Shown here one piece after another: positions 3,750 through 61,009 of a stretch of 64,000 nt of DNA. The stretch spans positions 40,505,693-40,569,692 of the forward strand of contig OX439045.1 of NCBI GenBank assembly GCA_949317995.1. Reading direction: 5' to 3'. The stretch is from Acholoe squamosa (Eukaryota; Annelida; Polychaeta; Phyllodocida; Polynoidae). Below the pieces are notes generated by a model. The model did no database searches. It saw nothing but the letters and a program-made list of their open reading frames with translations, and had not been told where the DNA came from. The position numbers and the translations under genes are program-made. Position 1 is the first letter of the stretch. Each line of letters starts with the position of its first letter.

Positions 3750-5500
3750 GCAAAGGTTCACGAGTGGGAGTCTGTGGCAGGGCGGGGTGCAATGCGGCAC
3801 CCAAGCTTCAAGTGTGGTAACCCTCTGACAGACTTCCATGAGTGCTCCTTTGCGTTTATCTCATGGTGACATCATCTACCTACATCATCTGGCATGATAA
3901 CATCATCTTTTCACTCTGGAATTTAGGCCTACCACACAGGAATTGTTTACGTCGCCATTTTGAAGCTATGACGTCATGAAAGAGTCACGTGACCTCAGCA
4001 TGAAGTACGCTCCCTACGTACTTCACGGATCCCGTGAAGTACTGGGCCCCCAAGGGGTCCCCCCCCCTGATGTCACAATGTCGCCAAAATTCAAGTCTTC
4101 AGGTCACATGTCACTTTTTAAGGAATGGACATGTCATGAGCACATGTCACTTTTTATGTTTAACTGAAATGTAGGCCTATAGGCCTCTGCTGGAAATTAT
4201 ATATGCTAGAAATCCATAATCCATGATTATGAGAAGGGGGGTGCCCATTTTGGCCACAAGTATGTACCGTAGCTAAACAGTGAAGATAACTAGGAACAAT
4301 TAAGTGCAGTTAATTCACAAGCAAGGTGAATTAGCCTACCATTAATCCCAGCATATAAGATGTCACTCTTGTGAAGGACACACGTGGGGTCAAATTTTGG
4401 TCACTATAGTACTAGGTATTCCATAGTGACACCTCCTGATTAAGACGCACCGTGGGGTTGGGTTGGCTAAAGTTCTATAGGATGCAGATGCTGTAAAGCT
4501 TGTGTATACTTAATAGGTAAGCTGCAGCTTATATGTGATGAGTTACGGTAATTATCGATGGGAGTCTGGGGCATACTTCCCAGGAAGAATTTCTTTTATT
4601 CTAGAGGGTGAATCAGGTATCCATGTGCATCTTGAGGTCTATAGGCCTACTTACTAAAAAAAAATGTACCAGCAAAATTTTGAAATCTAGAATTTCTAAC
4701 CGTCTGGACCCTATGGACAGAATTATCAGCCCTGCAGTGCTCTTACCCCATGCCCGGCGGGGGGGGGGGGCGCTGACTCCTTGAAGGTCACCTTCAACTG
4801 CCACCCTATCTATCAGCAACCTTGAAATCTGACTGCCCTGATTGAATCGGTAAGCTGGACTTTGACCGACCCCCTTTTTCCAAAAACTCAAATAGTGCCT
4901 GGACTGCCCCACCTCCAAACCTCCACCCTCAACCAAGCTCTCTATTGTCCTCATTCATTTGTATAAATCAGATCTTTTTATTGACCAGCAATATGTTTTT
5001 GAGGGCTTTTTAGGCCCTCATATGTACAGTCCATAAACAATACACTCTGGTGGAATGCCACAGCCCTGCTGTTAGGGATCGCATAGGAATCCAGCGCCCT
5101 ACCTTTTTGGGACCTAGTGGAAATCCACCGCCACCGCTCCCTGGAGTCGGGCTGCAGTTGGTATCCAACTCATAGTCAAGTGCCCCCTCCCCTCTGGGCT
5201 CCACGCCCTAGGAGCTGAATTCTCGGCACTGTAAGGGCCGATTTCTCAGCCATACATACAGTGCTGTGCTAAATTTACGCTCTATGCCTGACAAAATTGT
5301 CTATGACCACGATTCTTTCAGTATGGATTCAAAACATATGGCCTGATATATTGTCAGATTTTCAACCCAAAGAGGTAGATATTACAGCTACAGCAGGCTG
5401 ATACAAAAACATCAATTTTCCTTCCCGTATTTACTCCATTGTTTAAACTTAAGTGGTACTCATACAGATGCAGGTAGCCTACATGTGTACTTCTATACAG
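3750..5500. other. Gene-free stretch with ATGTCAC-type repeats
   Basis: 4070-4160 carries the cacatgtcactttttaa dispersed motif also seen at 5775-5930, about 60080-60170 (inverted) and the window's right edge. The rest is G-rich low-complexity and unique sequence. No coding exon supported. Confidence 0.5.
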
Positions 5501-17719: not shown

Positions 17720-18430
17720 CCCCCTGCACCAATATCGCTAGGTTGGTATAATAGACTCTACACATTTTTATTAGTCGAGAGACCCTTGGATCACCTGTCA
17801 TTTTATTCCATAAGGTCAACGTGATGCACCAATGCATTTATTTGTCCTTAAAAGTATCGATAACTTTGTTCCCATTGTGCAGATTTGAAAATAAAGACCG
17901 CCATGACGTTCGCCAGCTCGAGCTACCCTTAATCTATAGGTCACACTATGGGAAACTCCTATCATTAAGGGATTTTTTTTGTAAAACTGCCAGTTCTTGG
18001 ACCTCTCTGCCAGTGCCTGGACTGGCGTCTGCCCCCGCGTCCCAAAAAAACCTTTCTTTCGATCCATTCCTTCCTCAAACCTGGCCTTTTTCACCGCTGA
18101 CACTTAAAACAGATAGGTTTTGGCTGAAGATAGGGCGCAGGTGGAGCGGCTCAGGCCGAAAAGGCCGCTAGTTAAAAAAATTATTTCCCTTATTCTTTTT
18201 ACAAAAAAAAATTTTTTTTCGGGGGGGCATGTTCTTTAGGGGGACAAAACACCCCAGATTCATACTGAACACTCAATATCTGCGCACATTATTTGCATAA
18301 TTAGCATAATTATGCAGTGTCCTGGTACTTTTCAATATAGATATGTTGTATTCCTCCTTTATAGAATTCATATGCTTGCAAGTGTACACTACTGACACCT
18401 AGTGTATAAGTATGGGTTTTGATGGTCCCA
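17720..18430. other. Gene-free stretch
   Basis: Poly-C and poly-T low-complexity runs (to 17730 and 18170-18240) with unique sequence between. No exon supported. Confidence 0.4.
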
Positions 18431-18469
18431 TATGCATATTTTGGGCTCCAGGGGGGTAAAATGTACCCA

Positions 18470-19957
18470 AAATGACCTAAATTATCTGGGCGAAATTGTG
18501 TCTGGGAGAATGACATTTGAGTTACAAGCCATGTTGAAGGCTCAAGTGACCGTCTACCTCAAGGCGTTAGGGTACAAAGTGGTGGAAAAGTACGAATGTC
18601 AGTGGCTGAAACAAAGAGAGAGCGAAGAATTCAAGGTGAAAAAGGAACTGTGGGTCGTAAAAAGACCCCCTTGTTCGGGTAGAAAAAGCGAAGCAGAAAT
18701 TCTCAAAGGTGTGACTGATCGTTCCCTTTTCGGACTGAGTCAGGTCAACATAGAAACACCGGAGGCGTTGAAGGAGAAATTTGTGGAAATGACTCACATT
18801 TTCAAGAACTGTTTAGTGAAAAGGGAAGACATGGGCGAACACATGCAGCACTTTTTAGAAGCCGCGGGTAAGTTGAAACAACCTCAACAACAGCTCATAG
18901 AAAGTTATCATGCTCAGAAAATCCTCTTAGGCACCCCTCTCTTAAAGTGGTACATGGAAAAGGGGTTAGTGGTGACTAAGGTGTATTTAGTGGTGGAATA
19001 CACATCGGAAATAACGTTTCTCTCCTTCATGGAAGAAGTGACCTCGGCTAGGAGAAAGAGCGACAACAACATTGACTGCAAAATTCTTTCAGACCTGTAT
19101 AAACTTCTCGGAAACGGGTCTTATGATAAAACCATATGCAACAAGCAAAATTTTCTTTGCACGCGGTACACGTCTCCCACCAAAGCCAAGTGGTTAGCTT
19201 TACACTGGTCTGTTCAAGAGGTGCTAGACATCAGTGCAAACATGGAACTTTCTTACCTGCTCACCGCCATCACCTACGACCTCCCTGTGCAAATAGGGTT
19301 CATGGTGTATCAGTACGCCAAAAGCTGGCCTTCTACTACGACTTCCTTCTGGAATTCATAGACCAAAGAAACTTTGAAATGTGTGAAATGGACACTGATA
19401 GTTTCTACTTTGCGTTGAACGCGAAAAGTCTAGAGGAAGCTGTCAAACCCGAGAGACGAAGAGCTTTCTTTAGCGAGTGTCATAAATGGTTGCCTTCAGA
19501 CTCGCGTGACAACTCTTATCATCGGGAAAGCTATGTAGAATGTAAAACCCTGGGGTACACTTGGTTCCCTTCACCGTGTTGTAAACAACGTCTGGCATTC
19601 CACAAGAGAACTCCAGGTCTTTTCAAAGTGGAGTGGGAAGGAGATGAGATGACGGCCTTAAACTCCAAATGTTACATAGGAAGTGGAGAAGGGGTGGAAA
19701 AGAAAATGAGCTGCAAAGGAGTGATTCAAAAACAAAACGAATTAACAGCTGAAGACAAAAAGGTGTTGAAAACCGAAAAAAGCACTATGGTGACCAACAA
19801 AGGTTTCAGAGTGGTAAATCATCAAGTCAGTATTTATTCACAAAAGAAACAGGGATTAAGTTATCAGTATATACCAAAAGATGCCTATGTCAAGACGGAG
19901 GAAGCACTTTGCCCTTGGAAATTTGAAAATCTCTCTCTTTTCTGTTGCACACGGTGA
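18470..19957 (+). pseudogene. Family-B DNA polymerase (PolB_2/Polinton-like) fragment, frameshifted
   Basis: Two overlapping plus-strand frames, 18432-19361 and 19136-19957, together cover a palm-domain region of a family-B DNA polymerase of the kind carried by Polinton/Maverick elements and related DNA viruses. The first frame has GYKVVE..ECQW early, then LLGTPLLKWY and a motif-B-like KLLGNGSYDKT at about 19101. The second frame carries the catalytic DTDS (motif C) at 19391-19402. A one-base frame change near 19316-19330 separates them. The exonuclease domain, motif A region and C-terminal thumb are missing or unrecognisable. Motif B deviates from the usual NS-YGKT form. No capsid, integrase or terminal repeats were found nearby, so this is an inactive fragment. 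Whether it came from a transposon or an old viral insertion cannot be decided here. Confidence 0.75.
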
Positions 19958-27500: not shown

Positions 27501-30500
27501 TTAAAATGAGACCATTGGATTCTGCATCAAAAATTAGCTTAACATATTTTTATAATGATTTTAGAGTAATTTTGCAACTCCCCTGGTGGCCAAATGGGGA
27601 ACTAAAAATCCCCCGAGGAGGGGTGTTTTACCTTGATGAGTCACAGGTATTTATTTGATGTTAATCTTCTTTTATGTATTCTATATCTAGAATTAAGCTT
27701 CTTGTGTTTGGAGCGTTCACCATCTACTTTACAATGCTGATTATGCCATGTTTTCAGTACTGGCAAGACGAGTTTTTAACATGGGATCCTGCAGACTATG
27801 ACGGAATAGAGAAGGTCTATTTGAGCGTTGACACAATATGGAGACCCGACGTTGTGCTGTACAACAGGTAGGTCTACAATGAATTGCATACATTTGGATA
27901 AACTATATAAATACATGAACTCACCCTCGGATGCCTAAGTCCCTCAGGAAGGCATTTCTCAAGATGGTATGACTAGACCCACTTCAAGTCGTAGTGAGAT
28001 CTCTCAGTTAAATACCATTACAGCCCTGTATCTAGTTATCGTTAATAATTGCACTGGTATGACTGCCCTACCAAACCCTATGTAATTACTGCCTTAAGTG
28101 CTGATCGTACAGAGTAGGCGTAGTGTGTTACCTACAATCACCCACTCTGATTATGAGGTTTTCAAGTCGCACTGGCTGTGTCTAGTCGTACTTGAGAAAT
28201 TCCCTCCAGGTTGATCAATGTAAATGCAATGATGGTCACCTCTGCCAGTAAAATTACACACTTTTCCCCAATCATAGCTCTACGGTTTGCTCTAAGGACC
28301 ACCTGACTGTTACTGCCAAGTGCTGGTTAGTGTTCCTGGTGAGGCAAAGACTGGCTGTGCCTGTGGGGTGTTTCACAAGTTGGCAATATTTACAACCAGT
28401 CATACCTAGATGTGATAGCAGTTTTAAGATCGGTTGTAGGCTTATACTAGCAGGTGTTTCTACAAAGGTCATCAGTACCGTAATCTCCCGCGTATAAGGC
28501 GCATCCCACGTATAAGGCGCACCCAGAGTTTCAGAATATGGTCAAAAAAATAAAAAAATCATAACTTTTGTTCTAATGAATGGATTTTCAAAATTCAAAA
28601 AGCTATGTGCTGTTTGGACCCCCGTGACCCTCCTGGAACCCAAATGCAGCAGATGAGCTTATATGGTAGTGTAACATATCAAAAGAAAGGTCTTGGTGTC
28701 CCCCTTGTGGATCCAATTAGAACTAAAACCCCCTGTATAAGACGCGCCTTATACGCGGGAGATTACGGTATATTCTAATATATTTCTCTATATGATCTGA
28801 CCAAGATAGGTGTGGTTATAACTTTGTGATAGTCATAATTTGGATTTAGAAATGGATGAATTCTGACTATTATTATCTTTGGCTTGTGAAACACCGCACA
28901 GGACTTGTCTTACTTGTTGACGAGAAGAAGTATCAGGAGGTGTTGTAGGGAAGATTAATGAAATTGTTGTAATCATTCTGCTATATTACCACAACCTCTG
29001 CGTCACTGCAATCAAGGAAACCGCCTAGAATGCAAAGGCCTAAAATGCACATATTTTGACATCTTAGAACATCAAGTGGGATTCTACCATGTCGACCTTG
29101 ACTCAGCTAGCGTGGGCCCCCAAACCACAAACTTCGCATCTGTGAAACAAAGACTTATCAGGCCTTCATTTTTCACGTGTTTTAACAATCACTATGCAGC
29201 AAACCTTTCAACAACCTCTATGCAGCAAACCACCTGCAAAATGTGCGATACTCCATATCCTAATTAGTTTGGTTTTTACCTCTTTACCTGTCCCGAGAAA
29301 AGTATAATTTATGTGTGTTCTGTTCATCTTAGTATTTGGTATTTTGTTCATCTTTGAAGAAGTAAGGTAAAGCTTTAAGAACCCTCTTGTTCAGGGAGCA
29401 GTTATGATGACTGATTGGGTCTACTGCAATGAAATAGGACACATAGTAGCTCACTTTTGATAATTCTGCATAAGCCTCACTGGGCAAAGGTCAACGGTAA
29501 TTTCCATCTGTTTTTCTGACTGCCAGGAAGGACATTTTAATTTGGGGCAACCCCATAAACCCTAACGTATACTCCCACTCCTCCCCCCCCCAAAAAAAAA
29601 AAAAGAAAAAAGAAGGTATTTGTCCACTATGCTGCTCCTGTGCATATGCGACAACCATGACATTTTCAATGCCTACTTGTCATTGCAGTGTGGACGTGGA
29701 GAGGACAGCATTTGAGGTATTCCCTGCTGGTGTTGCAGGAGTCACCCACGAAGGGTATGTGAACTGGTTTGCACCTGTCATCATGCAGAGTCTGTGCAAG
29801 ATCAAAGTGGATGCCTACCCTTTTGACCAACAGGTAAGTGGGGGTGGTATAGATAGAGCCATCAATACAACATACACCATTGTCTTGCAATTGCCTCTCA
29901 ACCTTGGTCAGTGTCTATCGTACTCAATCTCGGGCTGGAGTCATTTATTCCCATGTGCAGAGGGGGGAGGAACTTTTGAAAAAGGGGGGCAAAACTCAAT
30001 AAACCTTTTCATTGGGGCAGGTTAATATGTGTGGTTCAAGACTCACGATACGTCATACCACATATGTATCTAAATTTTATTTTACTCGTTCCTTTTTTTT
30101 GGGGGGGCAGGGTCAGCAAGGAGGGAGCCCAAACTACAAGATATTGATTGAAAAACGGCCATTTCCACACATTTTACAAGAAAAACAGAAGGCCTTTAAA
30201 AGTTAATGTTTAACTTAGATCACAATGATGTCTACTTCCCAAATAAATTCTAATGAAGTCTACATGTATATCGATACTAGATAGTTCCGACAAACATCTA
30301 TAATACAATATTGTACGCTCTATAATTATAAATGAGGTAAAGGCCATTATGAATGTTAGCTACACTGAAACCTTAGCTATTTTGGTTTTGTACTTTTCTA
30401 CTTTCAGTCATGCCCTTTGAAGTTTGGATCATGGAGCTATGATGGCCTTAAGTTGAACCTTACCGCCAAGTATGAAAAAGTGTCACTGGCAAACTATGTT

Positions 30501-33500
30501 ACTAGTGTAGAGTGGATGGTAAACAAAACTTTGTTGCAAAATGAAACATGCTCTCTCAGATATATACTATCTTGACATGGTATATTCATGATGACTATAG
30601 CTCAGGGTCTATATATTCACTGTATCTACAATGAACAACACTTTTATTTTTTTTTCTTACTAAAGTTTATTGATTAAAACTCAACAAATTATATGTTGAT
30701 TTCAGTTGGTTGCTTCATATAGTTATAGCATAGCATGTCATTCTCTACTATACACCACATCTCATTAACAATTTGGTACCTAACCATTGTGTGTGTTCCT
30801 TGTCCCACAGGTGCTAGATACCCCATGTAAGACAAATGTTCTATATTATAACTGCTGCCCAGAGCCATACCCAGATGTGACCTGTGATATTATCATGCGT
30901 AGACGGCCTGCCTTCTACCTTTTTAATTTGGTGCTGCCAACAGTACTGCTGCTGATCATTGGGCTGCTCGTTTTCTGTCTACCCCCCGAGTCTGGGGAAA
31001 AGGTAGTGTGCGGTTTTTAATTTGAGCAGTAATATTATTAACTTTGATTTGATTTATTCCTGAAGTTGAAATTCATTTTTTAGACACAAAGGAAAATAAA
31101 GTTCTACAAAGATAAATCTTAATGATATATGTGATGCCCAATAAAGGCGAAACCACAGCTCTCTTGATGATTGATAAGTAGACATAGTGCTTTGAAAAGT
31201 GATTTCCTCAGATCAAGTATTACTCTTACCAGCAACATTACAAATCAGTAGAATCATTGCCTAGGTATCAAAGGGTGCAGAAATTAAATTCACTTACCAT
31301 AATGTATTCCTTTTCCCTCTTTTCCCAGGTTTCACTGGCCATCACTGTTCTCTTATCAATGTCAGTCTATATGTTGATTGTCATGGACAATGTGCCCCCT
31401 AATGCAGAGGCAATCCCACTACTTGGTATGTTTTTCAAAGATTGGACATAGATCTAACAGATATTCTGTAAAGAATCATTGTATCAACAAGTATGATGAG
31501 TATGGGGGCTGTTTACATAGCATTGAAAAGACTTTGTATCCTCCATCCTAGTATACCCTAGTATATATTGTAGCGGTAGCGCTCCGCTACTGCGGGGCCC
31601 TGCGGGGCTGGTTGGTTCGGCCAGCTGCCACTAGGGGATGTGTTGGCCACGGCCACTATATAACGTGACCGCGGGACAGCGGCCCCTCAGTCGTGACTTA
31701 GGCTCCAAAAGGCACGGGTCGGACCAGCCTACCTCACAGAGCCATGGCTATAGGAAGGACATTGTGCATTGATCCTAGATGCTAACTTGATGACTAATAG
31801 ATGAACAATTGATGTTCAGTGTTTGTTTCACGAGTAGTTGACTCCTTGTACCACTAGTTATTGTTCAGAGAAAAGAAGGGACAGCCGTCTCTGTTGTCAA
31901 CCGTACTCGGGTAGCTGTCTTTCCCCTAGGCAACCACATACCGTTACAATATCATAAGAATCATTGTATCAACATCAAAGTATGATCAGTATGGGGGCAG
32001 TTTACAAATCATTGAAAATACATTGTATTCCCCATCCTAGTATATCCTGGTATAGATCATTGTTGATAAGCAAGCACTTTGGCCTGTATACCATGATGAT
32101 AACAAAATAGGTTTACTCTTACAAGTGAGCAATTTTGGAGTTCAAGGCAAAGTATAGTCCCCCACTATAATTCTATTGAAAAAGAAAATATGATTTTTAA
32201 GTAATATGTGACATATATTTTACCAATCTGCAGAGCTGTTTATTGGTGGCACGGTGGGCATGCTGACTTTGTCTACAGTCATGGCTGTGTTTGTTGTCAA
32301 CTTCCACTTCCGTGGTAGCTACTCACGGCCACCATACTGGATCCGGTGCTGCTGCATGGGCAGATTTCTAGCCACCATCTGCTGCCTTAGGAAGGAGGTC
32401 AAAGACATTGAAGATGGAGATGAAATATTGGTAAGGGTTAGCACGTTCTTTATAGCCTTCTTCATCCACTGGGATCAGTTGTGGAATGTGACCAAAGCAG
32501 ATCATATGAAAATCATAAAGAGTACATCTCATTCAAATGTGGTCCACTCTGCAAATTGGCTGTAGCATATTGCTCTCAAACACCTTTATTATCTTCAGGT
32601 GGCATCTGTATGAAGTTTTCTTGTTTATAAAAGTGACTAAGTTTCTGCATATTACTAAGTTTCCACAGATAAATCTACCTAAACACACCTAGTGGTTTTG
32701 AGAATTTCAGTCTCTGCTTTACTCCACGGTTTTGGAAAAGTTATTATTTCAATAAATTGGTTCTTATTCTGAGCAGCCTCCAAATACTCCTAAACCACCA
32801 ACTACAAACCCTCCCAAACAAAATCAGGTAATAATCTTGCAATCACCATCCGGCGATCTTTATCAAATGGCAACAATGATCATGTGATTTATGTACATTG
32901 TGATTATGTTTTTTACAATATTACCTAACTATCCTTTACCAAAACTTCTTTTGTGTTTATTACTCTACCATACTACTTTGTTGTTACAGATTTTTTTAAT
33001 GTATATAGAATTTATCACCCCCAACGTTATTGGTTAAAAAAAAAGGTTTTTGACACTCATCAGTTCACTGTGTTAAACGACATAAATTACTGTACATAAC
33101 TATACACTTTGAATCATTTTATTTCGTTGCATTTTGTTTATTTGAAATTCTGGTTTGGATGAAGTATTGATTGCTGCGTTTAACTCTGTATTTGATAAAA
33201 TAGTCTACCTTGATCCACATTCTATCATCCTGAAATATTTTTGAGGACAAAGGACAAATTTAAAATAATGATGGTGATGATAGAAATAATAAACATAGGA
33301 ATAAATGTTTTATCTTAAGTTTGCATTAAAAACAGTGGATTTGAATTGCTGGATCAATTAAAGAAACAGAGGGAAAATGTGATAAAATCCCAATTTATCA
33401 TTTCATTTTACCAGGTGACCACCAACAATTCCAACAACTCCTACAATGTTCCCAATAGTGGTGGTGGTGGGGTTTCCCTGATGTCGATGTCGTCAGTGAG

Positions 33501-33780
33501 ACAAAACAATAATGGTTCAACTGGCTCAGTCAACCAGATCAAGATTCAAAGCATTGACACTGGCATAAGGGACCCTTCCAATGACACCTTGCAGCAAATA
33601 CTGGGTGAAGTGCGGCAACAGAGTTGGCGTATGCAGGAGAGGTATCGGGAAAAGAAGATAGACAACGTAGGGGAAGCAGAGTGGCGTGTAGTAGCCATGA
33701 CTCTGGATAGAGTCTTTTTTATGGTCCTTCTAACAGTGAGCCTCATCATGTCCCTGGTTATCTTCAAGGATGTAATCTAA
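24579..33780 (+). CDS. Nicotinic acetylcholine receptor, alpha-type subunit (11 coding exons, 514 aa)
   Basis: Coding exons: 24579-24654, 25155-25309, 25880-25924, 27758-27867, 29689-29833, 30408-30518, 30811-31002, 31329-31425, 32234-32430, 32777-32827 and 33415-33780. All introns are GT-AG and the phases join without a stop. The product is a cation-channel subunit of the pentameric Cys-loop family in the plasma membrane. Residues 1-24 form a signal peptide. Visible are loop A WRPDVVLYN, the Cys-loop C165-C179 with FD, loop B GSWSYDG, and the vicinal pair C229-C230 in YYNCCPEPYPD, which defines an alpha-type (agonist-binding) subunit. M1 is about 247-271, M2 279-298 preceded by GEK (cation-selective), M3 312-336 and M4 482-514. 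The 45-bp and 110-bp exons match the classic nicotinic gene layout. The M3-M4 loop is short and Asn/Ser/Gly-rich. A second Met lies at codon 3. Which alpha subtype it is cannot be told by eye. Confidence 0.96.
27049..27633. mobile_element. Inverted-repeat MITE in receptor intron 3
   Basis: aaaacacccctctgcaggga (27051) mirrors cgaggaggggtgtttt (to 27630), with AT-rich noncoding sequence between. The length is about 585 bp. Exact ends are uncertain. Confidence 0.6.
27950..28212. mobile_element. Inverted-repeat MITE, copy B, in receptor intron 4
   Basis: Same family as 21368-21632. The left end aaggcatttctcaagatggt and right end gtcgtacttgagaaattccc are inverted copies. Confidence 0.8.
28478..28768. 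mobile_element. CCGTAATCTCCCGCGTATAAG MITE with TA target duplication
   Basis: Perfect inverted ends ccgtaatctcccgcgtataa and ttatacgcgggagattacgg are flanked by TA at 28476-28477 and 28769-28770. TA duplication is typical of Tc1/mariner/pogo-type transposition. Related copies lie at 48282-48385, 52643-52850 and 55490-55758, sharing the ggtcttggtgtcccc interior. Confidence 0.9.
31569..31951. mobile_element. Inverted-end element flanked by a ~95-bp direct duplication
   Basis: The ends attgtagcggta and taccgttacaat are inverted copies with one mismatch. The GC-rich interior differs from its surroundings. On both sides lies the same ~95-bp sequence (31471-31570 and 31956-32050, starting aagaatcattgtatcaaca), far longer than a normal target duplication. 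It sits in intron 8 of the receptor gene. Confidence 0.65.
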
Positions 33781-36739: not shown

Positions 36740-37385
36740 TTTTGTTCGCAATCTGTCGACCGCCACGACCACCCGGTCCGTCAGTATCAGTACATTGTCC
36801 GCTAGTATTAGTACAATGTCCGCTAGGATCAGGTACAGTGTCCGCTAGTATTGACGGACAGTTGACCGCCAGGATCAGGTACTTGTCCGTTAGTATTAGC
36901 ACAGTGTCCGCTAGTACTGACCGACAGTTGACCGGTAGGATCAGTTACTTGTCCGTCAGTACTAGTACAGTGTCCGCTAGTACTAATGGACAGTTGACCG
37001 CCCGGATTTGTGCCCTGTCCGTCAGTATCATTATAATGCCCGCTAGTAATAACGGACAGTTGACCGCCAGGATTTGTTACTTGTCCGTCAGTATCATTAT
37101 AATGCCCGCTAGTAATAACGGACAGTTGACCGCCAGGATTTGTTACTTGTCCGTCAGTATCATTATAATGTCCGCTAGTTCTGGCGGACAGTCGACCGCC
37201 GGGATTTGTTACTTGTCCGTCAGTATCATTATAATGTCCGCTAGTTCTGGCGGACAGTCGACCGCCGGGATTTGTTACTTGTCCGTCAGTATCATTATAA
37301 TGTCCGCTAGTTCTGGCGGACAGTCGACCGCCAGGATTTGTCCCCTATTCGTTAGGATTGGTCACTTGACCGTCAGGGACATGAC
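36740..37385 (+). repeat. 66-bp minisatellite with internal inverted sub-repeats
   Basis: ttgtccgtcagtatcattat recurs at 37081, 37147, 37213 and 37279, exactly 66 bp apart; more degenerate units extend leftwards to about 36740. Each unit contains opposed tgtccg and cggaca blocks, so single strands could fold. Because 66 is divisible by three, an open frame of 222 codons is kept open by periodicity. I do not regard it as a gene. Confidence 0.9.
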
Positions 37386-38906: not shown

Positions 38907-41900
38907 CAGGGCTCGACAAATCAGTTTGGAGACCCTGTGCCCACTGGGCACAAAGGTAAAAAAAAGTTGTGCCCAGCAGGCAAGTTCTGTGCCCGGCACC
39001 TTTGCTTTCTATGTATACACAAAATTACATATTTAGATAAATGAACACACATAGTTTTAAGGTAAAAAAAACAATTTTATTTCATCACATCTTTGGTGAA
39101 ACAACTTCATTTAACATTTTAGAAACCACTATTCTCAGCAGCATAGCATTGTGCTCTTGCAGACTTTATTACTTTGATGGCAAATTGTGACCAGTGACAT
39201 GACGATGCCCAGGAGTGTTTATTAGCCACATATCAATGACTCTGTCTGGGTTGAATTCCTCAAGTGGAGGCCCATCTATGATGATGGTCAGCTGCTCATC
39301 TAAAGCTTTCTGTGAGAGGGAGTTTCGAAGAGCAGTTTTCACCCTGTTCATAGCTGAAAAGCCCCTCTCACACTCAGCTGTACTTGGACTGAGCACAAAC
39401 AGTAACTGCAGGAGGGTTACAATGTGCTCCAACCGAGCAGGTGGGTCTTGCAGCAAACCTGAGTACACATCCATCATAGACGAATCCCTGATGTGAATAG
39501 AAAATATATATCATGTATTTGATGCCTGAAATAAATTTATCTAGATTTTTTCTCCAAAATTTGATGCATAGAGAAAAATATTGAATGAATGGATGTTGTT
39601 CGTCCATTGACTACTTCTTTCATTTAGTGTGATAATTTTAAGGATCTTTCATGAAATATCTAATATTTAGCATACCTGAGTTTCATAATCTGGTTCTTCA
39701 GTGCTGCCCACTCAGTCATTATTTCATTTGCTTCTTCTTCACCACGAAGGACTGGACTGAAGTGATGGAGTAGCCCTTTGATGTCACTGTTTCCAAATGT
39801 GGCAAGCTCATCTGGGGGTAGGTTGAAGGGCCACTGCTTGAAGTTGAAGATATTGAAATGTGCAAGAGGTGGTTTCAGGAAGGTGTTGAATCGTGTCTGC
39901 ACATAGGTTGCTACATCTGAAATGACTTTCTGTAGATCCTTGTCATCAGCAAATGAAACCATTCTCTTTCCAGTGAGGTGAACTCCTGATTCTCCAAATG
40001 TACCATCGTCCTTTTGAGAATCATAGAAGAGAGTCATGTTTCTTCCAGGCACTGTTTTCATTGCTTCTAGATTGAGTGTGAGGTCTTCAATGATGCCTGA
40101 AACTTCCACAAGCAAGAGGTTGTATCTTTGAAAGAGCCTTGATGATTTGCGGACAAGTTCAAGAACATCAAGCAAGAGATGGAGGAATTTCACAAACTTG
40201 TATGATGAAACAGTATTCTTGAGTTTCTTTGATTTGCCACTTTCATCAGCATTCCTGTTCTTTGCAGCTGCATGTTCTAGATGAGTGATGGTAGCCCCGA
40301 GATTTCTCTGAATGGCAGTTAGAGCCCTGGTCTTACTGGCAACCCAGCGCACACTTTTTATTGCACCATATTGGAGAAGATCTTGGTCAAGAACAGATGC
40401 AATTTCCTGTAGTTCCCGTCTTCGCTTTGGAGAGTAGTGATAAAAGTTATAAAGTTTCTTCACGGTAGTTTCAAAGGTCTGCAAGTAGTCTATAGACTTG
40501 ATGGCATCAAGCACACCCAACTCAAGTTTGTGTGCCACACAGTGTATCGAAATCAGCCAAGGCAGGTTATCCTGGAGCTTCTTAGCAACACCACTTTTAT
40601 GGCCCATCATCACAGATGCTCCATCAAAGTTACAGCCAATCAATGTTGTAGGATCTTGAGATGTAACATCAAGTTTCAGGGCAGACAAGCCTGTTTGTAT
40701 CCCCTCTAGGACACCATCACTTGTAGCATTATTTAGACTGACAATGGAGGCAAGGCGTGTTACAGGTTTCCCATGGTCAACAAAACGAACATACACCAAC
40801 TCTTGTTCTATAATTGTTGCATCTGTAGAACCATCTGCAAGCACAGTATAGAAACGTGCCTCGTTAACTTTTTTGGTTGTCTCATCTTTGATTGATTTAG
40901 CAATGTATGATGTGAATTCGGCTGCCTTCTTGTCTGTACTGTAGTTCTCACCAAGATCTAATTTGTTCTTTGATTGAATTGCACACAACAAGGGAAAATC
41001 AGTGTATGGTCGACTATGCTTAGCTAAGCCATAGGCAGTGTTAAAGAAAGATCTAAGGCGATCTCTCTGCTGTCCATGAAGGGCCAATATACCACGACCT
41101 ATGGACGTTTTTGTGCAATCATACTGGCCTGTTTCCTTTTGTTTCTCAAGTATCTCAGCTGACACAGCATCCAGGTGTTCCTTCTTCTTTTCATGTCTTA
41201 CTAATGTCTCTCTCCTAAAAAAATCACTTCCACTGATAAATGGGTTATTATTAGAATGTGATATACATGGCCGACAGTACATCAAATCCTTTTCCTGATC
41301 AAAGAAAAGCCATGAGAAATCCTTGAGCCAGGCCTGCTGAAATCTACGTTCACGCCTGGTTGCTTCATAATTCTTGCTATCAAACTTGCTCTTCTTTTTA
41401 TTTTGTTGACTGTGAGGCTCTCCGGATGACCTCTTGGTGGCACTATTCATCTGTGAATAGAAAAGAAACTATCTAAAAATTTCATTAACAAACCTATATA
41501 ACCTGCCCCCCCCCCAAAAAAAAAAAAAAAATAATAAAAATTCAAGTTACCTGGGGCTACCTAGTAGTACAGGGCATACCATACACAATTTCGGGGCAGT
41601 ATTATGTGCTTGTCTTTTAATTATATTTTGCAGGTCACGTAACTTCAAGCATACAATCTTTTTGGCCCATATCTCTGCCTAGCCTTTTCTTGAAACATAT
41701 TAAGAGCTATGCCCTATATCATTATTTTCCCTTTTCACTGCTTATGGATTCAATCACTGTCGTTCTCCTATGAATGATGATAAATATAGGATTGAAAATC
41801 AAACTCACCAACAGCCACTTTTCCATTTTGAACACAGGATTTAGAAAGACGTTTGCACTTGTGAATTAGTCACAGAACCATATGAGGGGATAATCTCTGA

Positions 41901-42549: not shown

Positions 42550-45500
42550 ATGGTAAAGCATTAATCTACTGTACAGCTCGGTTTTTACTAGGTTTTTTTT
42601 CGAATGTAATGTTGCAGATGGAGGCTCTAGCCAAGACCGTTCTGTTCGAAAGGCCACCGAATTGCAGGCCGTCTTGCACAGAAGCAGTAATGTTGCGGAG
42701 CATTGGTGTACAGGTGTCTACCATGAGGAGAAGGGCGAGGCCTGCTGTAGTCACAACCGACGATGTGAGTTTTACTTTATGGAAATCCTGTATAAGCAAA
42801 TAATGCCTTTGTTTTTCAATTTTTATTTAAAACAACATTAATCCTCCGTTCCTTAACCTGTTTTTTTTTTATTCACCACAGAATAAATGCTCTTTCAAAC
42901 CCAATATTAAATAAGTCAAAAAAATAAATTTCAATGTGGCCTATGCCGAATACAGGCAGGACCACACTAGCATGAAAAAGGCTAGTAATTTCAATCAATT
43001 CGCCATGAGTATCTGCTCATATATCAGTACAATTACTTGTTTCTTATGACTACAACATCTCCTACTATACCTTCATTGGTTTGCAACCACGTTAGGTAGA
43101 ATGTAAAGAATTTCTAGTAGACTATTTTGGGAATATTATACATTAATTCCCCAATTATTCCATATGTGTCTAAACCCGTCACATGTAATTATCACATTAG
43201 GGTGGAGCCCATAATAGATTTTTTGTATTGTTTTTCCAACAGCGGGACCTGACCGGACCGGCTTTGTGGTCGCAAACATACAGAGCTAAAATGATAGCCG
43301 AAAAAGGAGATGAATGGCGTGATGACCAGCGTGATAAACGCCAGGAGCGCCGAAGAAAGCAAAGGCAGCGAGAAGCCGCAGTAAGTTTTACCCAAATTTA
43401 TACTTGAATAAAACAAGTTTCAAGACAGATGGAAAAATGTATATATAGGTGGCAGATTTACCTATTGAATTTGTAGAGTCTTTAAAGGATGAGATGTAGG
43501 GGTCTTGCAGGAAAAGGTGTTTCAGTACCAACTATTGTAAATTTTGAATAATTGTCTGTATTCTACAGAGTCGGTTGGTTCGCAGCCATAACATACTTTT
43601 AGCCTTCAATATGATATATGATGTTGATCCATGTATCAACTTTTCCGCCTGTTTTGGCAATGCGGTGCAAATAGCGCAGACTTGGTGGGAGTTATGCAAA
43701 TAGTGGCATGGTGGTGCGAATAACATGGGTCAGTAGCATTTGGTCATCCAAGCAGAGATCTTGTGCAAGTACAGGACTATAACACTACTTAACACCTGCT
43801 TTCAGTTGGTACATGTTTGTGTATGGGAGTGCTGATGTCAGACCACAAACTAGACTTGCTCAAGGCTATTGATTTTAATTCTGGAGAAACAATGTTATGG
43901 AAAAGACTATCAGAGCTTTGGGACAGCAGATAGTCTAGCTAATGTAATGTACTGTAACTAACTAATGCAATGTAATGGAAAAGACTATCAAGTATAAAGG
44001 GGCCAGAGCTTAGGGACAGCAGAGACTCTAACTGCAATTACCTTAAATTCTTAATTCTGACAAAATATTTATGTTGTATTTCTTATTCAGTTTGGCGCAA
44101 TGCACATTGCTTCCCCATACTTTATTTCTTAATTCAATGAAGATTATTTTTTGTAACCATGGAAAACGGGGGTTAAAAGTCTCTTAATATTACTCTTATT
44201 TTGCAGGCAAAAAAGCAATTAGATGGGAGTGGAGAGCAAGCTGCCGAATCAGGCAACCGTGAAGGATATGGGCATCATCCCACTCCCAAATCTGACGCCA
44301 CTAAGAAAAGAAATACGGTACAAAAAAGGACAAATGTGCCACAAACCCAAACCTATGGGAAATCCCACAGTGACAGCCAGGGAGGAAAAGATCAGAGCCC
44401 TAGTTCCTCCTGTACTGAAACTCAACCAAATCTAACAAAGCATGTTGTTGCGCACACCCTCACTAACAATAACTCATTGGAGGCACTGCTTATCGAGCCC
44501 CACAACAGCGGCCAGGAAATTACCATGGACACGACAGACTGCAGGGAGGAGCCAGTATATACCTCCAATCTCCGAGGTGGTAACAGAGCCGACTCAAATG
44601 AAGGAAGTTCATGGGCCAGCGTCTCCATGCAAGAAACACAAGTAAAAGCTGGCACCTTCAGCGATCTAATGGAAGGACCTTTTAATGCCTGTGGCAACAC
44701 TTGCACAGGAAAAAACCCAGAATTCCAAGTGAACCTCATGGATGGTCCTATGGTTAAACAGAAGAGTGATGCTGATATGCCTAACTTCGATCTCCCAGGA
44801 GGTTTCATAAGAGAAACCACCGAGTTCATCACTCCCGTAGGAGTTGACAACCAGACCTACTGCAAAGCTGCAGAAGAACCAGGTACGCACCAGGAGAATC
44901 AAACTAGCAGAGAGAAAACAACAGGACTCCAAAGGAACCAGAACAGTCTTGCCCATACGGTTGACCAGTTCAGTGACGCTTATTTTCTTAACCACAACAC
45001 TCACGCTCATATCGTTAAGCAGAACAGTAATGGTCAAATTGTTAATCAGAACAGTCGACCCCTATCGCTTAACCTCCATCTCCCAGGTGGTTTCATAAGA
45101 GAAACTAACGACTTCATGACTGTATTAGGAGATGACTCACCTAATACACTATGCAAGGAGACCTACTGCAATGCAGGAGAAGAAGAACCGGGTACACAGC
45201 AAGGCAATTCTAACTGTCCAAAATACCCCGAAATACCAACCACCAAAGAATCCCCTATTCCAAGTCATACTACGCCTTTCCTTCCAGGCGGTCTCATCAC
45301 AGAAGTAATCGAGTTCAGCAATTTTGTGACTGTCCTCAATGGCACCACACAGTCCAACAGCACAAATATGGACATCCATCAGAATATTTCCACACCAAGC
45401 GACAACGCCCGCAACCATACCTTGGCAAGCAACCCAACACTGGGGCAATCAATTCAGCACTCCCCAAAATCCAACATGAATCCACAGGAGGAATGTGTTC

Positions 45501-48500
45501 AACCTGCTATTGGTGGGCAACTCACACATATGCGAGTAGTCACAATGAACAGTTCCAACGAGTGCATTCAAACCAGAGGATATATGCCAGTGACTCCAGG
45601 GGTGGTTTCAGTTATTGAAAAGGACTCTGCACAGAAGGACTTCCGGGTTATCCTTTCTGACAAGGCGCATAAGAGTACGGTGAATGTGGAAGAACCCTCC
45701 CCACCCAAGCCGTGGTTAACTGAGGTCCAAACCAACTGGGTCCCAATCCCAAGGTCGAACTTAGTGGAATATCCTTCCTCAGATGATGACAGTGAGAACC
45801 CTAGTTCCACACAACAGACTCACGCTGTCATCATTGAGTGCGCCAACCTGCAGACAAATGATGTATTGAATCAAACTCCTGTTAATGTAGTTGAGGAACA
45901 TAAATCCCCAGAGTCAGAGGTCCGACCACTAGTTTCTCCTACTGTAAAGGAAGTTCACAGGACCAGAATGCAAACGAGAGGGCAGGTGAGAACCTCTTGA
46001 GGATTAAAGGGAAACAGTGATATAATCTACTGCTATTATAATACTCCTTAGTGAATAACAGGCAGATGCACGAAATAAGAAAATATCATGGAAACACAAA
46101 TTGTTTTTTAGTTGGTCTTTACTTCACAAAAATGCTCTTATTTGGAGCTTTATTTATGAACTCTAAATAATGCTCCTAAATATTATCTTCCAGCGCCGGA
46201 TGGTGCATGAAATATCAGAATGTTCGGAGACGGAAGACCTGCCTATAAGAAAAAACTCTCTCAGAAAGAAACGATTGGTAAGTTCACGCAAATAAGGAAA
46301 AAAATCAGATAAGGTAGATTAACTCTATGTAAGATTTATAACAACTCTGCTCTCAGAATGGTATGAAAGAGGCCAACAGCTCACAGTCCTCATACCTGAT
46401 GAGAGACAAAACTGGTATTTTTAAACATAGAATATTTATGTCATAATAGGTTGTACATTATGGTATTTTTTTATAGTTAATGTAGTTTTGTTGTTGCTGG
46501 CGGGTGAACTATTGTGTCTTTGGTTCAATCAACAGGGACGCATAGAAGAGAGCGACAGCGAGACTGAGAAAGCTCCGACGCCAAAGAAAAGGAGGCAGGT
46601 GAGTGGTAAGGAGGGCTGTTTGGGGCAAAAAAAAAAAAATCCCAGTGAAAGGTTGTGCTTGATGTGGAACTTTTTGGCAGGCCTATTATCCCCTTATAGT
46701 GCTTACCCTGCACCCTACCCTCATATCTATTATTAATGCTGTGTCAGTTTAGATCAGATTTTCCGTATTTCAGGTAATTCTTGTTTGGCAGTATAGTTTG
46801 CACAGAGTTTCATAATGCTTACATGGCTACAGAAAATGATTAACCTGTCTAATATTATCTAGTTTTAACTTTGTGTGCTGGTGGACAAGGTCAACAGTAC
46901 AAAACATAAATGTTGATTACGTCAATCACTGAATAATTGAACAAATACAAGAAACCATTCCTGTGTCTGCATAAAGACTTAAAGACTATTCTCATTCCTC
47001 CCTTACAGCAAAGAGGACAGGCTTTAACTCACACTCGAAAGTCACCAAGGAAGCCAACCGCACCATCATGCACAGTTTGTCCACATCACAACCAGTCGCC
47101 GGTAAGATCACCAGTAAGAGTAGGGAGGAGGCCCTCACACAGAACTCCTTGTAAGACGGCACTCAGGAATAACAGAATAACTACTGCTCAAAAATCAGTG
47201 AGGAGGGTGAGTGCAATTAATTTCTCCAATTCACTGTCATCGGGAAATACACCTGTATTACAAATATACTAAAAACCATGGAAATGTGCTTTCTGGCTGA
47301 ATATGTTTACTTCACTAAACTCTGGTATATTCGTAGAAAAACCTAACAATTTACATAGAATTTTTCTGTTCCCTTTTTGAGAAATTTGTGACAATTTTTT
47401 TAAATCATTTAGCATCAATTATATCTTATATTTTTTGGAGCAAAATGAGAAGACATTCGAAGTTCTAATTTTTCAATTTGTAACAATTTCAGCCAGTCAA
47501 GGGAAGACTGTCTTTCTCTCCTCTGAAATGCAAAGCTGCTAAAGTTCCTCTTCGGCCGGCCACAACTGAGGTAAGTCCTAGAGGAATGCATTTGGTTCTT
47601 ATGACATTTAATGCGTTGAACTTCTCTGTTATCTTTGTCCAACTACGGACAGCCAAACTCCGAATTCTACCAAGATAAAGCGCATAGTCCTAAATAATGA
47701 TTGCATTGTATATTAAAATTTTTAGTTCATTTTACAGAAAAGTCAGTTCAAGACACCAGGGGGACGGGCGAAAACGACCACTACTGAACGCGAGTCAAGC
47801 CCTCGCCGTGATTCCATTGAAAGCTATAGCAGCTGTGGCAGCAACAGAACGCTCGAGTCAAGTGGCCCGGAATCCAGCGACAACAGCAGACGATCATCTG
47901 ATTTTGATGAATTGTCAACAACTGACAGTGATGCTAGCCGCCGGGACAGCAGTGGGAGTGAAGGGTGTGGCAGGACCTGGTCAGTTCCCCCGAAAGGGAA
48001 ATCCCCCGCGAAAAGAAATGCGCCGAGGAAAGTTTCCACGAACATGGTAGGAAAATATGAACCTATTCTACTAATACAGTACCGCATTGCTATGAAATCT
48101 GCTTTGTTGTGATTTCTTTCACCACTTTGCCTAGTTGTGTAAATGAGTTAGAATTGCCATATGAAATGTATTTCTTTCCGAAATTGAATGAAAAAGTGCT
48201 ATATTTGAGGTTGATTACTTATTCGCTATGTACGGCCCCATGGGGTCTACACGTGTAAGATTAGTACATTTCTATAGTAAAAATACCCCTCGTATAAGAC
48301 GCACCCCAAACTTAAGGGAATCCTATAAGACCCAGTAGGCATTTGTTTGGCATAGAGGATGCGTCTCATACGCGAGAGATTACGGTACTTAGACATTATT
48401 ATATCACACAAAACCAGACAAGGTTTATAGTTTAAATTTTTATTTATGGAGAAAAATGTATTATACAGTTGGTAGTATGATGTTATGTTCAATCTCCAAT

Positions 48501-57430: not shown

Positions 57431-58067
57431 CAGTGAAACTTGGTTATAACAAACTCCCTTATAACGAAATTTGGATATAACAAACAAAAATGCTTAGTCA
57501 CAAACCTCTCTTATACATTTCTATAGTAGAAAAACTTGGTTATAACAAAGTACTTAAGGCATAAACCTGTTTATAATGAATTAATTTTGACCCCCAAATT
57601 GGGAAAATATGCACTAAATCATTTATTTATATCAATATAACTTGTGTTCATGTCCCCAGATTAGGTATAGATGTCCTTAAACAGGCCTTAACACCTTTTA
57701 GATCTCGGCCACTGCTACAGGTGATGGGGGGGGGTAGATGTCCTTAAACAGGCTCTAACACCTCTTAGATCTTGGCCACTGCTACAGGTGATGGGGGGGG
57801 GGGTAGATGTCCTTAAACAGGCTTTAACACCTCTTAGATCTCGGCCACTGCTACAGGTGACAGGGTGAAGGGGGGGGGGTAGATGTCCTTAAACAGGCCT
57901 TAACACCTCTTGGATCTCGTCCACTGCTACAGGTGATGGGGGGGGGGTAGATGTCCTTAAACAGTCATTAAACCTTTCCAAAGTGCTGAACTTGCTTACA
58001 ACGAAATTTGGTTATAACGAATTTTTTGAGCCTGTAACAACTAGTTCGTTGTAACCAAGTTTTACTG
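57431..58067. mobile_element. pogo/Tigger-like MITE with TA target duplication
   Basis: Ends cagtgaaacttggttataac and gttgtaaccaagttttactg are inverted copies, flanked by TA at 57429-57430 and 58068-58069. Subterminal ttataacgaa repeats are present at both ends. The interior holds a minisatellite. Confidence 0.88.
57668..57970 (+). repeat. 67-76-bp minisatellite inside the pogo-like MITE
   Basis: tagatgtccttaaacaggc begins at 57668, 57735, 57804, 57880 and 57948. Unit length varies with the G-run between units. Confidence 0.92.
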
Positions 58068-58633
58068 TACTACGGTGACTCCCTCTTTTTCAGCCAGGCG
58101 CACCAGTATTAGAGTGCATTGCCTTTATTGGGGACTACAGGGGTCAAGCAAAGGGAGGTACAAAATTTGCAAACCCCCCCCCCCTATTTCCATCTACATC
58201 TTGAACTGCTTCCCATGCCCCTGTAGATATTCACATGTGATCACCCACTCATAAAATAGATAATGGTAGATATGCATTCATGTCATTGATAGATTCTTTA
58301 GCTGATACTCTGCCATGTAGTTTAAAAAATCTAACAACCCTGGGGTGCCATGTGTATATCGGGTATGGGGTATCCCCCTCCTCCTCCCACTGCAAATACT
58401 AACCTCTTTACATCATCTATTTTTATACGAATCAAAATAGGTATTGCATCAATTAGAGTACAGAGGTGGTAGAGCAGAGTAATAGATTTCTTGTTTGGTA
58501 TGAAACTCATAACTATTTTCCTCCTCATGAATGTCCTATGGCATGAAACACCATAGGACCCATTATTGGAGGCTTAGAATACATTCACAGTAGGCAACAA
58601 GAGTATTTCAAGCAACAGAGAAGGCAAAAACTT

Positions 58634-58663
58634 TTGGGAGTATGTGGTGCCCTGAAGAGGGCA
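58634..58663 (-). terminator. Histone-type 3' stem-loop and downstream block, paralogue 1
   Basis: Minus strand reads tgccct-cttc-agggca (58663-58648), a 6-bp stem with 4-nt loop, followed by ccacatactcccaaaagtt. Stem and loop sizes, the pyrimidine-rich 5' arm and the following CCA match the replication-dependent histone mRNA 3' end. The first pair is T-A instead of the usual G-C. Confidence 0.6.
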
Positions 58664-58713
58664 TTGTTTGGTGACCGATTGGTGATGGGTCGGGTCAGAG
58701 ATGGTGTGAGATT

Positions 58714-59049
58714 TCAGTCTTCTTGGTCGCTCTCCTCTTCCATGGCGATAATGAAGTCTACATTCAGGGCGTAGTAATAGCAATATTCAGAGAAGCGGTC
58801 GCGGACGAAGGCCAGTATGTCATGCTGCTGACGCAGCTGCCTAGCGAAGACAAGCTTCCCTCCCTTCATGGCACGGTTGTATCGGACAGTTATATCCCGA
58901 CATTTCCGGTTCAAGGTGTTAAGCTGGGTGTAGGCGCGTTGGAACTTGGCTGATGCACCAAGGATGTCTACTGGGCTGATGGGTGGCAGGCACCGGCAGG
59001 GTGGGGAAAGGGCCTCCATGATGTCGGCGGCGTCGGCAAGCTCAGCCAT
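58714..59049 (-). CDS. Unrecognised 111-aa intronless protein, tandem paralogue 1
   Basis: Single-exon minus-strand gene. I chose the ATG at 59049 because the product then begins MAE exactly like its paralogue at 60324-60665; an upstream in-frame ATG (59160) would add 37 residues and lie upstream of the TATA box. The protein has a CxCL-PI motif near residue 18, AKF-RAY about 34-40, RxxRA, QHD and EYC-YYA, with an acidic tail (EEESDQED). About 41 of some 84 ungapped positions match the paralogue by eye. It is predicted mainly helical, without signal peptide or membrane segment. A TATATAAAG box lies about 85 bp upstream of the ATG and a histone-type hairpin 50 nt after the stop. It is not a histone fold I recognise; function unknown. 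The histone-like 3' end suggests S-phase or poly(A)-independent expression, which is inference. Confidence 0.75.
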   Translation of the reverse strand: MAELADAADIMEALSPPCRCLPPISPVDILGASAKFQRAYTQLNTLNRKCRDITVRYNRAMKGGKLVFARQLRQQHDILAFVRDRFSEYCYYYALNVDFIIAMEEESDQED

Positions 59050-59130
59050 CTTAGATGAGTTGGGGTGGTTAGGACGATCCTTCCAGAGTAGGCGAGTCGG
59101 GGGTAGATGAGGACAGTTGGTTAGTGGTGT

Positions 59131-59139
59131 CTTTATATA
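59131..59139 (-). promoter_or_regulatory. TATA box of paralogue 1
   Basis: tatataaag on the minus strand, about 82 bp upstream of the chosen ATG. Confidence 0.6.
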
Positions 59140-59399
59140 GCCTGCCAGGATGCTTCTCATGAGCCTGAGCAGAGTTATGGTAGCATGTAGCAGACGGCTG
59201 GCGACAAGGTATGGTTATGGGAGCAGTTTCCACCCCACGACCACCCGGGCGTCTATGTGGACAGAGGCGGGGGCTGTTTGTGGTGCTGCCGGTCTCGCGC
59301 CTGGACGTTGCCCTTGTGTTGTGATATTGTCACACCTGTGAATGTTGTTTCGGCACAGACAGGTGCTCTGTAGACTCGGGGCCGCTGCTTGGAAAAACA

Positions 59400-60225
59400 A
59401 ACATGATATTCTCACCCTGATAAGGATGAGAATATAATCCCCATGAAGAGAGCTTTCATAACCATAACACACAGCCCTCGGACATTAAAACTAATTCTGC
59501 ATTCTACAGAACTTAATAAGTTAACACCATAAAATGGGTCTTTACCATGAATTGTAGACGCTGTGGCCACAAGACGATGTGGACAAGACAATGTAGACAT
59601 AGTCGTTGATGATGTGGCCAAACAGGGTGGATGATGTGGCCAATGTTTTGTACGGCTATCGATCATAAGGATGTAGGTCCCTCCCCAAGGGTTCTATAAC
59701 GAACCCATTAACTTACCTGGACAGTTTTTTAACTCTGGCCCATATATATGCACTTTTTTTTTATCCATATTCTAACAAAATCTAATCTAAATTGGTGGAC
59801 CAATGTCTGTGGGTGAAGTGGCCAAAAGACTATGTGGACAATTTTGGCACCATAGTCCAGAAAATTGGCCACATCGTCCTTGGTTTAGCCTCATGTGTGA
59901 TTAATTTCCCAGTCAACTATCAAACATTATTATTCAGAAAGAGTTACCTTATCACACACTGGGTGATCACTACAGAGAACATGCACCTGCATGTCCGACC
60001 AGATCAGAGAGGAGAGGGGTCCCCCTGCCAGAAGAGCATCATCAAAATGATGACCAATATCCATGCAAATATAGAGGGCACTTCTGCAAAAGACAAAATG
60101 ACATGTGACATGTCAAATCCCTAAAAAAAGTGCAACGTAACCTGAAACCTTTAATTTTGGCGACATTGTGACATTCGGGGGGCACCCCTAGGGGGCCCCT
60201 TTATAGCTCTGAGACTGAATAACTT
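59400..60225. other. Spacer between the paralogues
   Basis: gatgtggccaa/ttggccacatc phrases occur in opposite orientation at about 59567-59645 and 59818-59880, suggesting a small inverted-repeat element. 60100-60210 carries an inverted copy of the atgtcac/ggcgacattgtgac repeat. No gene seen. Confidence 0.4.
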
Positions 60226-60255
60226 TTGTGAGTATTTGGTGCCCTGAGAAGGGCA
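60226..60255 (-). terminator. Histone-type 3' stem-loop and downstream block, paralogue 2
   Basis: Minus strand reads tgccct-tctc-agggca (60255-60240), then ccaaatactcacaaaagtt. The stem is identical to that of paralogue 1 and the loop has different bases of the same length. The following ~19 nt differ at only two positions. Confidence 0.6.
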
Positions 60256-60323
60256 TTTTTGTTGGTGCGCAGTTTCTGAGCAGACTGGGGTAGGGTCAGA
60301 CCCAGAGAGCCGATATCCCGTCC

Positions 60324-60665
60324 CTACTCTTCTGTGTCGGGGAGATTGTCATTTTGTATTGCGGTAACAGCATCTATATTAGTGGCATAGTAAGAGCAAT
60401 ACTCGAAGAACATGTTGCGGATCCTGACAAAGACGTCATGCTGCAGCTGGAGGTGGTAGGCGAATTCAACATTTTGGTTTTTATTGGCACGGTAGAATCG
60501 GACTTCGAGGGCTTTTAACTTCCTGTCCAATGCACACACCTGTCTGTATGCACGCTCAAACTTGGCTGTTGCTGCCGCAACGTCTTCAGCAGTGATCGGC
60601 AGCAAGCAGTTGCAGATGGGGGAGATTTCCTCCGCATCAGCACGGTCCTGGTCAGGTTCAGCCAT
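60324..60665 (-). CDS. Unrecognised 113-aa intronless protein, tandem paralogue 2
   Basis: Same orientation and 1.3 kb upstream of paralogue 1. It begins MAE and shares CxCLLPI, AKFERAY, LDRK, VRFYRA, QHD, FFEYC-YYA and N-D, and it ends acidic (DTEE). No intron signals interrupt the frame. A TATA-like gtataatatg (60743-60752) lies about 80 bp before the ATG. A hairpin with the same stem as paralogue 1 lies 68 nt after the stop. Family unrecognised. Conservation of the reading frame between diverged copies, rather than of the flanks, argues that both are selected protein genes. Confidence 0.75.
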   Translation of the reverse strand: MAEPDQDRADAEEISPICNCLLPITAEDVAAATAKFERAYRQVCALDRKLKALEVRFYRANKNQNVEFAYHLQLQHDVFVRIRNMFFEYCSYYATNIDAVTAIQNDNLPDTEE

Positions 60666-60742
60666 CTCTGGATAGTGTTGGTTGAAGTGGGCGTCTGTTG
60701 GAGAGCAGAGTTGAGGGTGATATGATGAGTTGGATGACAGGG

Positions 60743-60752
60743 CATATTATAC
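60743..60752 (-). promoter_or_regulatory. TATA-like box of paralogue 2
   Basis: gtataatatg on the minus strand at nearly the same distance from the ATG as in paralogue 1. Confidence 0.45.
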
Positions 60753-61009
60753 ATGCCCCGATGACGCAATCCCATGTCTAGTGCCGGGTTGGTGTGAGAC
60801 GTCCGCGGCAACAGGGAGCTGTGATTACAGCTGTCCGGCCAACCGGAGCCGCCGGGCGGCGGTGTACACAGCGTCCCGCCGAGGCGAGTGATGAAACCTG
60901 TCTAACAGTCCACCCACCTCTGGTGTACGCCAGGCCAGACTGTGGTCAAAACAACCATGTGCTGACCAAGGCTCAGCGAAAATCTCCACCTATGCCCCCA
61001 TAGGGTTGA

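Follow-up and report, generated by a model that had tools for sequence, protein, structure and literature searches.

Tandem non-histone paralogues with putative histone-type mRNA 3′ ends in the annelid Acholoe squamosa

The 64,000-nucleotide stretch of Acholoe squamosa DNA analyzed here—in the following called the window—bears two intact reading frames in tandem on the minus strand, separated by a gap of ~1.3 kb. Gene 1 (58714..59049, minus strand) encodes a protein of 111 aa that begins with MAEL, carries an acidic tail, and ends at a TGA stop codon. Gene 2 (60324..60665, minus strand) is the upstream one of the pair and encodes 113 aa up to a TAG stop. Used as a tblastn query on the window, gene 1 finds gene 2 with an E value of 8e-26, and the two proteins show 42% identity over their full length. 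Identities at codon positions 1, 2, and 3 are 0.65, 0.65, and 0.49, with a GC3 of 0.67 for gene 1 and 0.57 for gene 2. The NG86 estimates of dN 0.47 versus dS 1.30 (dN/dS ~0.36) point to purifying selection acting on the reading frame, and, judged from their sequences, the two genes are most likely genuine paralogues that code for protein and have existed for some time. The first-pass annotation of this DNA had described tandem small paralogues sharing about half of their residues: the tandem pair and the kinship hold, while "about half" was slightly too high. Gene 1 also has an alternative longer frame of 148 aa starting upstream; since this frame crosses the TATA motif and since MAE is the start common to both proteins, the MAE start appears preferable. 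Both genes would be single-exon genes, as suggested by intact ORFs that fit between TATA motif and hairpin.

On the promoter side, the TATA motif of gene 1, TATATAAAGA (59130..59139, minus strand), starts 90 nt before the ATG, and that of gene 2, TATAAT (60746..60751, minus strand), starts 86 nt before it—in agreement with the TATA box at matching distance that had been claimed. Both genes thereby seem to combine an uninterrupted short ORF with a nearby promoter, as is typical of histone genes. E2F, octamer, and CCAAT motifs were found nowhere within 260 nt upstream of either gene, which counts against a histone-type reading. The gene 2 TATA motif is enclosed by a perfect inverted repeat, GGGCAT-GTATAAT-ATGCCC (60740-60758, read by eye), one arm of which overlaps the sequence of the 3′ hairpin stem (ATGCCC). 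Between the two genes lies an AT-rich hairpin of 13 pairs (ATATTCTCATCC..., 59406-59435).

Downstream of the stop codons, both genes carry a histone-like stem-loop on the coding strand: TGCCCT-CTTC-AGGGCA for gene 1 (58648..58663, minus strand), 50 nt after the stop, and TGCCCT-TCTC-AGGGCA for gene 2 (60240..60255, minus strand), 68 nt after the stop. Folding reproduces both hairpins as drawn, and the hairpin with an identical 6-bp stem and a 4-nt loop at 50-70 nt from the stop is thus present as first described. A 6-bp stem with a 4-nt loop on the coding strand and less than ~80 nt from the stop is also the layout of the RF00032 type. The hairpin by itself means little, since perfect 6-bp/4-nt hairpins, irrespective of sequence, number 123 in the window, nine of them with at least four G/C in the arm. 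More specific is a motif consisting of an AA flank, an N-G-Y-Y-C-T stem arm, a T at the third loop position, and full pairing with G-U allowed. It occurs twice in the window, namely in the hairpins of genes 1 and 2, whereas dinucleotide shuffles yielded one copy in 1/300 cases and two copies in 0/300. Chance formation of the hairpins was rejected on these 300 shuffles with a motif that is post hoc: it was composed from the histone consensus and the present sequences after both hairpins were known, and, hence, the Rfam Histone3 model (RF00032) serves as the independent test.

This covariance model aligns with both genes on the coding strand over model positions 1-46 of 46. For gene 2, the match (60260-60215) scores 24.1 bits, with an E value of 0.0017 in 4.5 kb and of 0.024 in 64 kb over 4227 families; the latter corresponds, by our own arithmetic, to ~6e-6 for the Histone3 family by itself. 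For gene 1, the match (58668-58625) scores 16.6 bits with an E value of 1 (4.5 kb, 4227 families) and is absent from the 64-kb scan at E<=10. Such a score is non-significant in a blind scan and counts against the histone-type reading, as does the Rfam gathering cut-off of 34 bits, which neither gene reaches. The scan with this model, which had been proposed as a check, thus gives a divided answer: both genes score on the right strand and in the right place, and both stay below the curated cut-off. Two details of the hairpins count against as well. The first stem pair is U-A in both genes instead of the G-C of the Rfam consensus—the cmscan alignment of gene 1 leaves this pair open—and the base directly after the 6-bp stem is C in both genes instead of A. 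Alternatively, the stem can be read as 5 bp followed by ACCA; a single flanking adenine on the 3′ side of the stem is counted as part of the minimum binding site of SLBP (PMC10388802). A histone cluster in the window was considered and rejected, as the 64-kb scan gave no further Histone3 match at E<=10 besides that of gene 2; the Pfam search covered 14 ORFs of the window in addition to the pair, and the histone check is therefore confined to these. Read on the plus strand, the gene 2 hairpin is followed by T as in a bacterial-type terminator. This reading was rejected on account of the animal-type genes in the window (ion-channel exons) and because no gene on the plus strand was seen to terminate at the hairpin.

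The stem-loops are followed by a conserved block, CCACATACTCCCAAAAGTTTTT in gene 1 (58626..58647, minus strand) and CCAAATACTCACAAAAGTTATT in gene 2 (60218..60239, minus strand), which by position and conservation is a candidate for the cleavage site and the histone downstream element (HDE). A blastn comparison of the 3′ sides of the two genes at E<=1e-3 returns a single match of 48 columns with 85% identity (E 5e-8). Without gaps, 17/20 positions agree directly after the stem end, followed by 5/20 and again 5/20; ahead of the stem, the agreement is 5/10, then 3/10, 1/10, and 2/10. Kept between the paralogues are hence the stem-loop together with a few A-rich bases that precede it and ~22 nt that follow it, with chance level beyond. 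This is to be set against a dS of 1.3 and third codon positions that are only 49% identical, compared with the 85% of the 48-column block. The points at which this conservation starts and stops provide, at the level of sequence, the strongest evidence for a putative histone-type end. The candidate HDE reads CAAAAGTT, and its placement resembles that of the element in histone genes.

For histones, the sequence past the cut is described to contain the HDE, which pairs with the 5′ end of the U7 snRNA (PMC7026596). As post-cut bases would be absent from the mature mRNA in such a model, their conservation points to a processing signal of the pre-mRNA, and the conserved block after the hairpin thus favors histone-type cleavage over a generic 3′UTR hairpin. 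The earlier claim of histone-type mRNA 3′ ends hence gains support from the covariance matches of both genes and from the block at the HDE position—with the scores below the gathering cut-off weighing on the other side. Some 20 nt beyond the conserved 3′ block of gene 2 begins one copy of an inverted repeat (60106-60198 and 4044-4136; 95 columns, 81% identity).

With metazoan replication-dependent histone genes (RF00032), the gene pair shares the small uninterrupted ORF, the TATA motif, the short 3′UTR, and the 6-bp/4-nt stem-loop, and the conserved block sits where those genes have their HDE. It differs from them in the protein, which is non-histone by Pfam and model, and from RF00032 in the U-A first pair, the sub-gathering score, and the lack of any other Histone3 match in the window. 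Invertebrate histone genes offer closer parallels. In bdelloids, the stem-loop is reported to lie 40-80 bp after the stop with a putative HDE 4-12 bp past it (PMC2642717), a stop-to-hairpin spacing and a close downstream element that genes 1 and 2 match (50 and 68 nt). The loop of gene 1 (CTTC) is C-first, like the normal C. elegans histone loop, given as CTTT (PMC1924863), and like loops that also occur in bdelloids (PMC2642717). As described in these sources, both systems resemble the gene pair in having a non-vertebrate putative downstream element. They differ in belonging to histone genes and in the element itself—an AATCC core in C. elegans and an AT-rich one in bdelloids. Histone mRNAs are described as the sole known metazoan messages with such an end (PMC6303110; PMC10388802), and among the titles and abstract openings listed from the open-licence literature, no report of non-histone mRNAs with a histone-type end was found.

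Overall, the two genes probably represent a non-histone paralogue family with mRNA ends like those of replication-dependent histones, formed via SLBP and U7. The main rival is another conserved 3′UTR element, inherited from the common ancestor of the two genes and histone-like by convergence, in mRNAs that are normally polyadenylated. Both Histone3 scores below the Rfam cut-off and the non-canonical first pair and 3′ flank would fit such an element, and so would possible poly(A) signals. Of AATAAA, the 900-nt stretches downstream of the two stops hold a single copy, 585 nt past the stop of gene 1, and this scarcity counts for the histone-type reading. TATAAA lies 287 nt after the gene 1 stop, and TATAAA and ATTAAA lie 119 and 169 nt after the gene 2 stop; the TATAAA and ATTAAA sites count against the histone-type reading. 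Downstream poly(A) signals are also reported for genuine histone genes (PMC1924863). Furthermore, there is a second conserved stretch, which suggests that further regulatory elements may reside in the UTR: 13 nt of the form TCTGACCC[G/T]ACCC, present as TCTGACCCGACCC in gene 1 (58687..58699, minus strand) and as TCTGACCCTACCC in gene 2 (60288..60300, minus strand), with 12/13 positions in common, 15 and 24 nt after the respective stops. Its distance to the hairpin differs between the genes, such that the gapped alignment shows it and the ungapped count misses it, and the match was equalled in 1/400 shuffles of both UTRs. This stretch is outside the histone signal and is a shared element that the histone model leaves unexplained; as it concerns the UTR ahead of the hairpin and not the block after it, it leaves the standing of the histone-type reading unchanged. 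Against convergence speaks the joint fit of the AA flank, the G-Y-Y-C-U stem, the third-loop U, the stop spacing, and the conserved downstream block to the histone signal, which makes this explanation unlikely.

The surroundings of the gene pair are of mixed content. An ORF of 602 aa (39660-41468, minus strand) carries a C17orf113 zinc finger, and its relatives are named zinc finger protein 862-like; 1/45 relatives is named hAT, and named relatives are found in hemichordates, molluscs, a fish, and a newt. From its sequence, this ORF is likely a transposase. On the plus strand, ORFs at 29501-30025 and 33319-33780 match a neurotransmitter-gated ion channel in its ligand-binding and transmembrane parts and are probably exons of one gene. 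Two overlapping plus-strand ORFs at 18423-19957 match no Pfam family; by their motif, we take them to resemble a broken family-B DNA polymerase. An open frame of 607 aa (44177-46000, plus strand) has no Pfam match at E<=0.001. Two minisatellites were noted: 7.6 copies of 66 bp at 36839-37341, which are open on both strands and give rise to long repetitive ORFs, and 4.4 copies of 69 bp at 57668-57975.

A repeat-rich window with a transposase-like ORF raises the thought that the gene pair belongs to a mobile element or an endogenous virus that captured a histone-type 3′ end from its host—all the more since the pair matches no known family. The signs expected of such an element did not turn up where they were sought. 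Neither ORF matches any Pfam transposon family; membership in a known transposon had been named in the first-pass annotation as a possible refutation. A blastn comparison confined to the window reveals no long repeat ends common to both genes; scans of viral contigs gave no relative, and BFVD no fold match at E<=0.001. With the dN/dS of ~0.36 also standing against it, we regard this origin as quite improbable.

As far as Pfam and the structural models tell, the two products are neither core nor linker histones: neither protein has a Pfam histone match at E<=1, and the predicted structures consist of two long antiparallel helices forming a helical hairpin (mean pLDDT 71.6 and 79.5). The products had been described as not looking like histones, and both lines of evidence agree with this. 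For the protein as a whole, the prediction is a hairpin of two helices; its N-terminus, which bears Cys-x-Cys, is poorly predicted, and its end is acidic. In the searches made, no relatives of either protein were found and no known family was matched, and the gene family is possibly lineage-restricted. The ESCRT-III Snf7 core, the ING dimerisation domain, and prefoldin show a likeness in fold only, at 4 to 12% identity or so among the matches listed; as the same Z score is reached by many unrelated folds, this likeness says nothing about function. A reading of the two proteins as histones or linker histones that have diverged to an extreme degree, which would make the 3′ end an ordinary one, is very improbable in view of these Pfam results and models and of isoelectric points of 5.4 and 4.8, even with a size of ~110 aa, an uninterrupted frame, a TATA motif, and a 3′ end that are all histone-like.

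For the preferred reading of SLBP- and U7-dependent ends, the following course of events can be proposed. SLBP would bind the stem-loop of both mRNAs, and base pairing with the U7 snRNP would involve the conserved stretch ~10-20 nt beyond it. Cleavage would fall between the stem-loop and the U7-paired stretch and would be carried out by the histone endonuclease, which most accounts give as CPSF73. MBLAC1 has been proposed as another endonuclease for histone ends (PMC6303110) and is thus a second candidate for the cutter. The product would be a short mRNA devoid of a poly(A) tail, and, in parallel with the histones, the protein would then be synthesized chiefly during S phase or kept as a maternal store.

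The protein may act with histones or chromatin as a partner coupled to replication, whereby a role in chromatin is a guess. For the chromatin, S-phase, or germline role suggested in the first-pass annotation, the sole pointer is what the 3′ end would imply. We see an even balance of arguments for the wider proposal that the output of a non-histone animal gene family is tied to DNA replication via SLBP and U7, which would add a second type of cargo to a pathway that is described as histone-only. Such a family could escape annotation, as poly(A)-selected RNA would be devoid of its messages. If true, this would break the rule of histone-only ends and would allow for a direct test of what makes messages SLBP-dependent. 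Other genes of this kind may be hidden as well, since annotation based on poly(A) would tend to miss messages that bear no tail.
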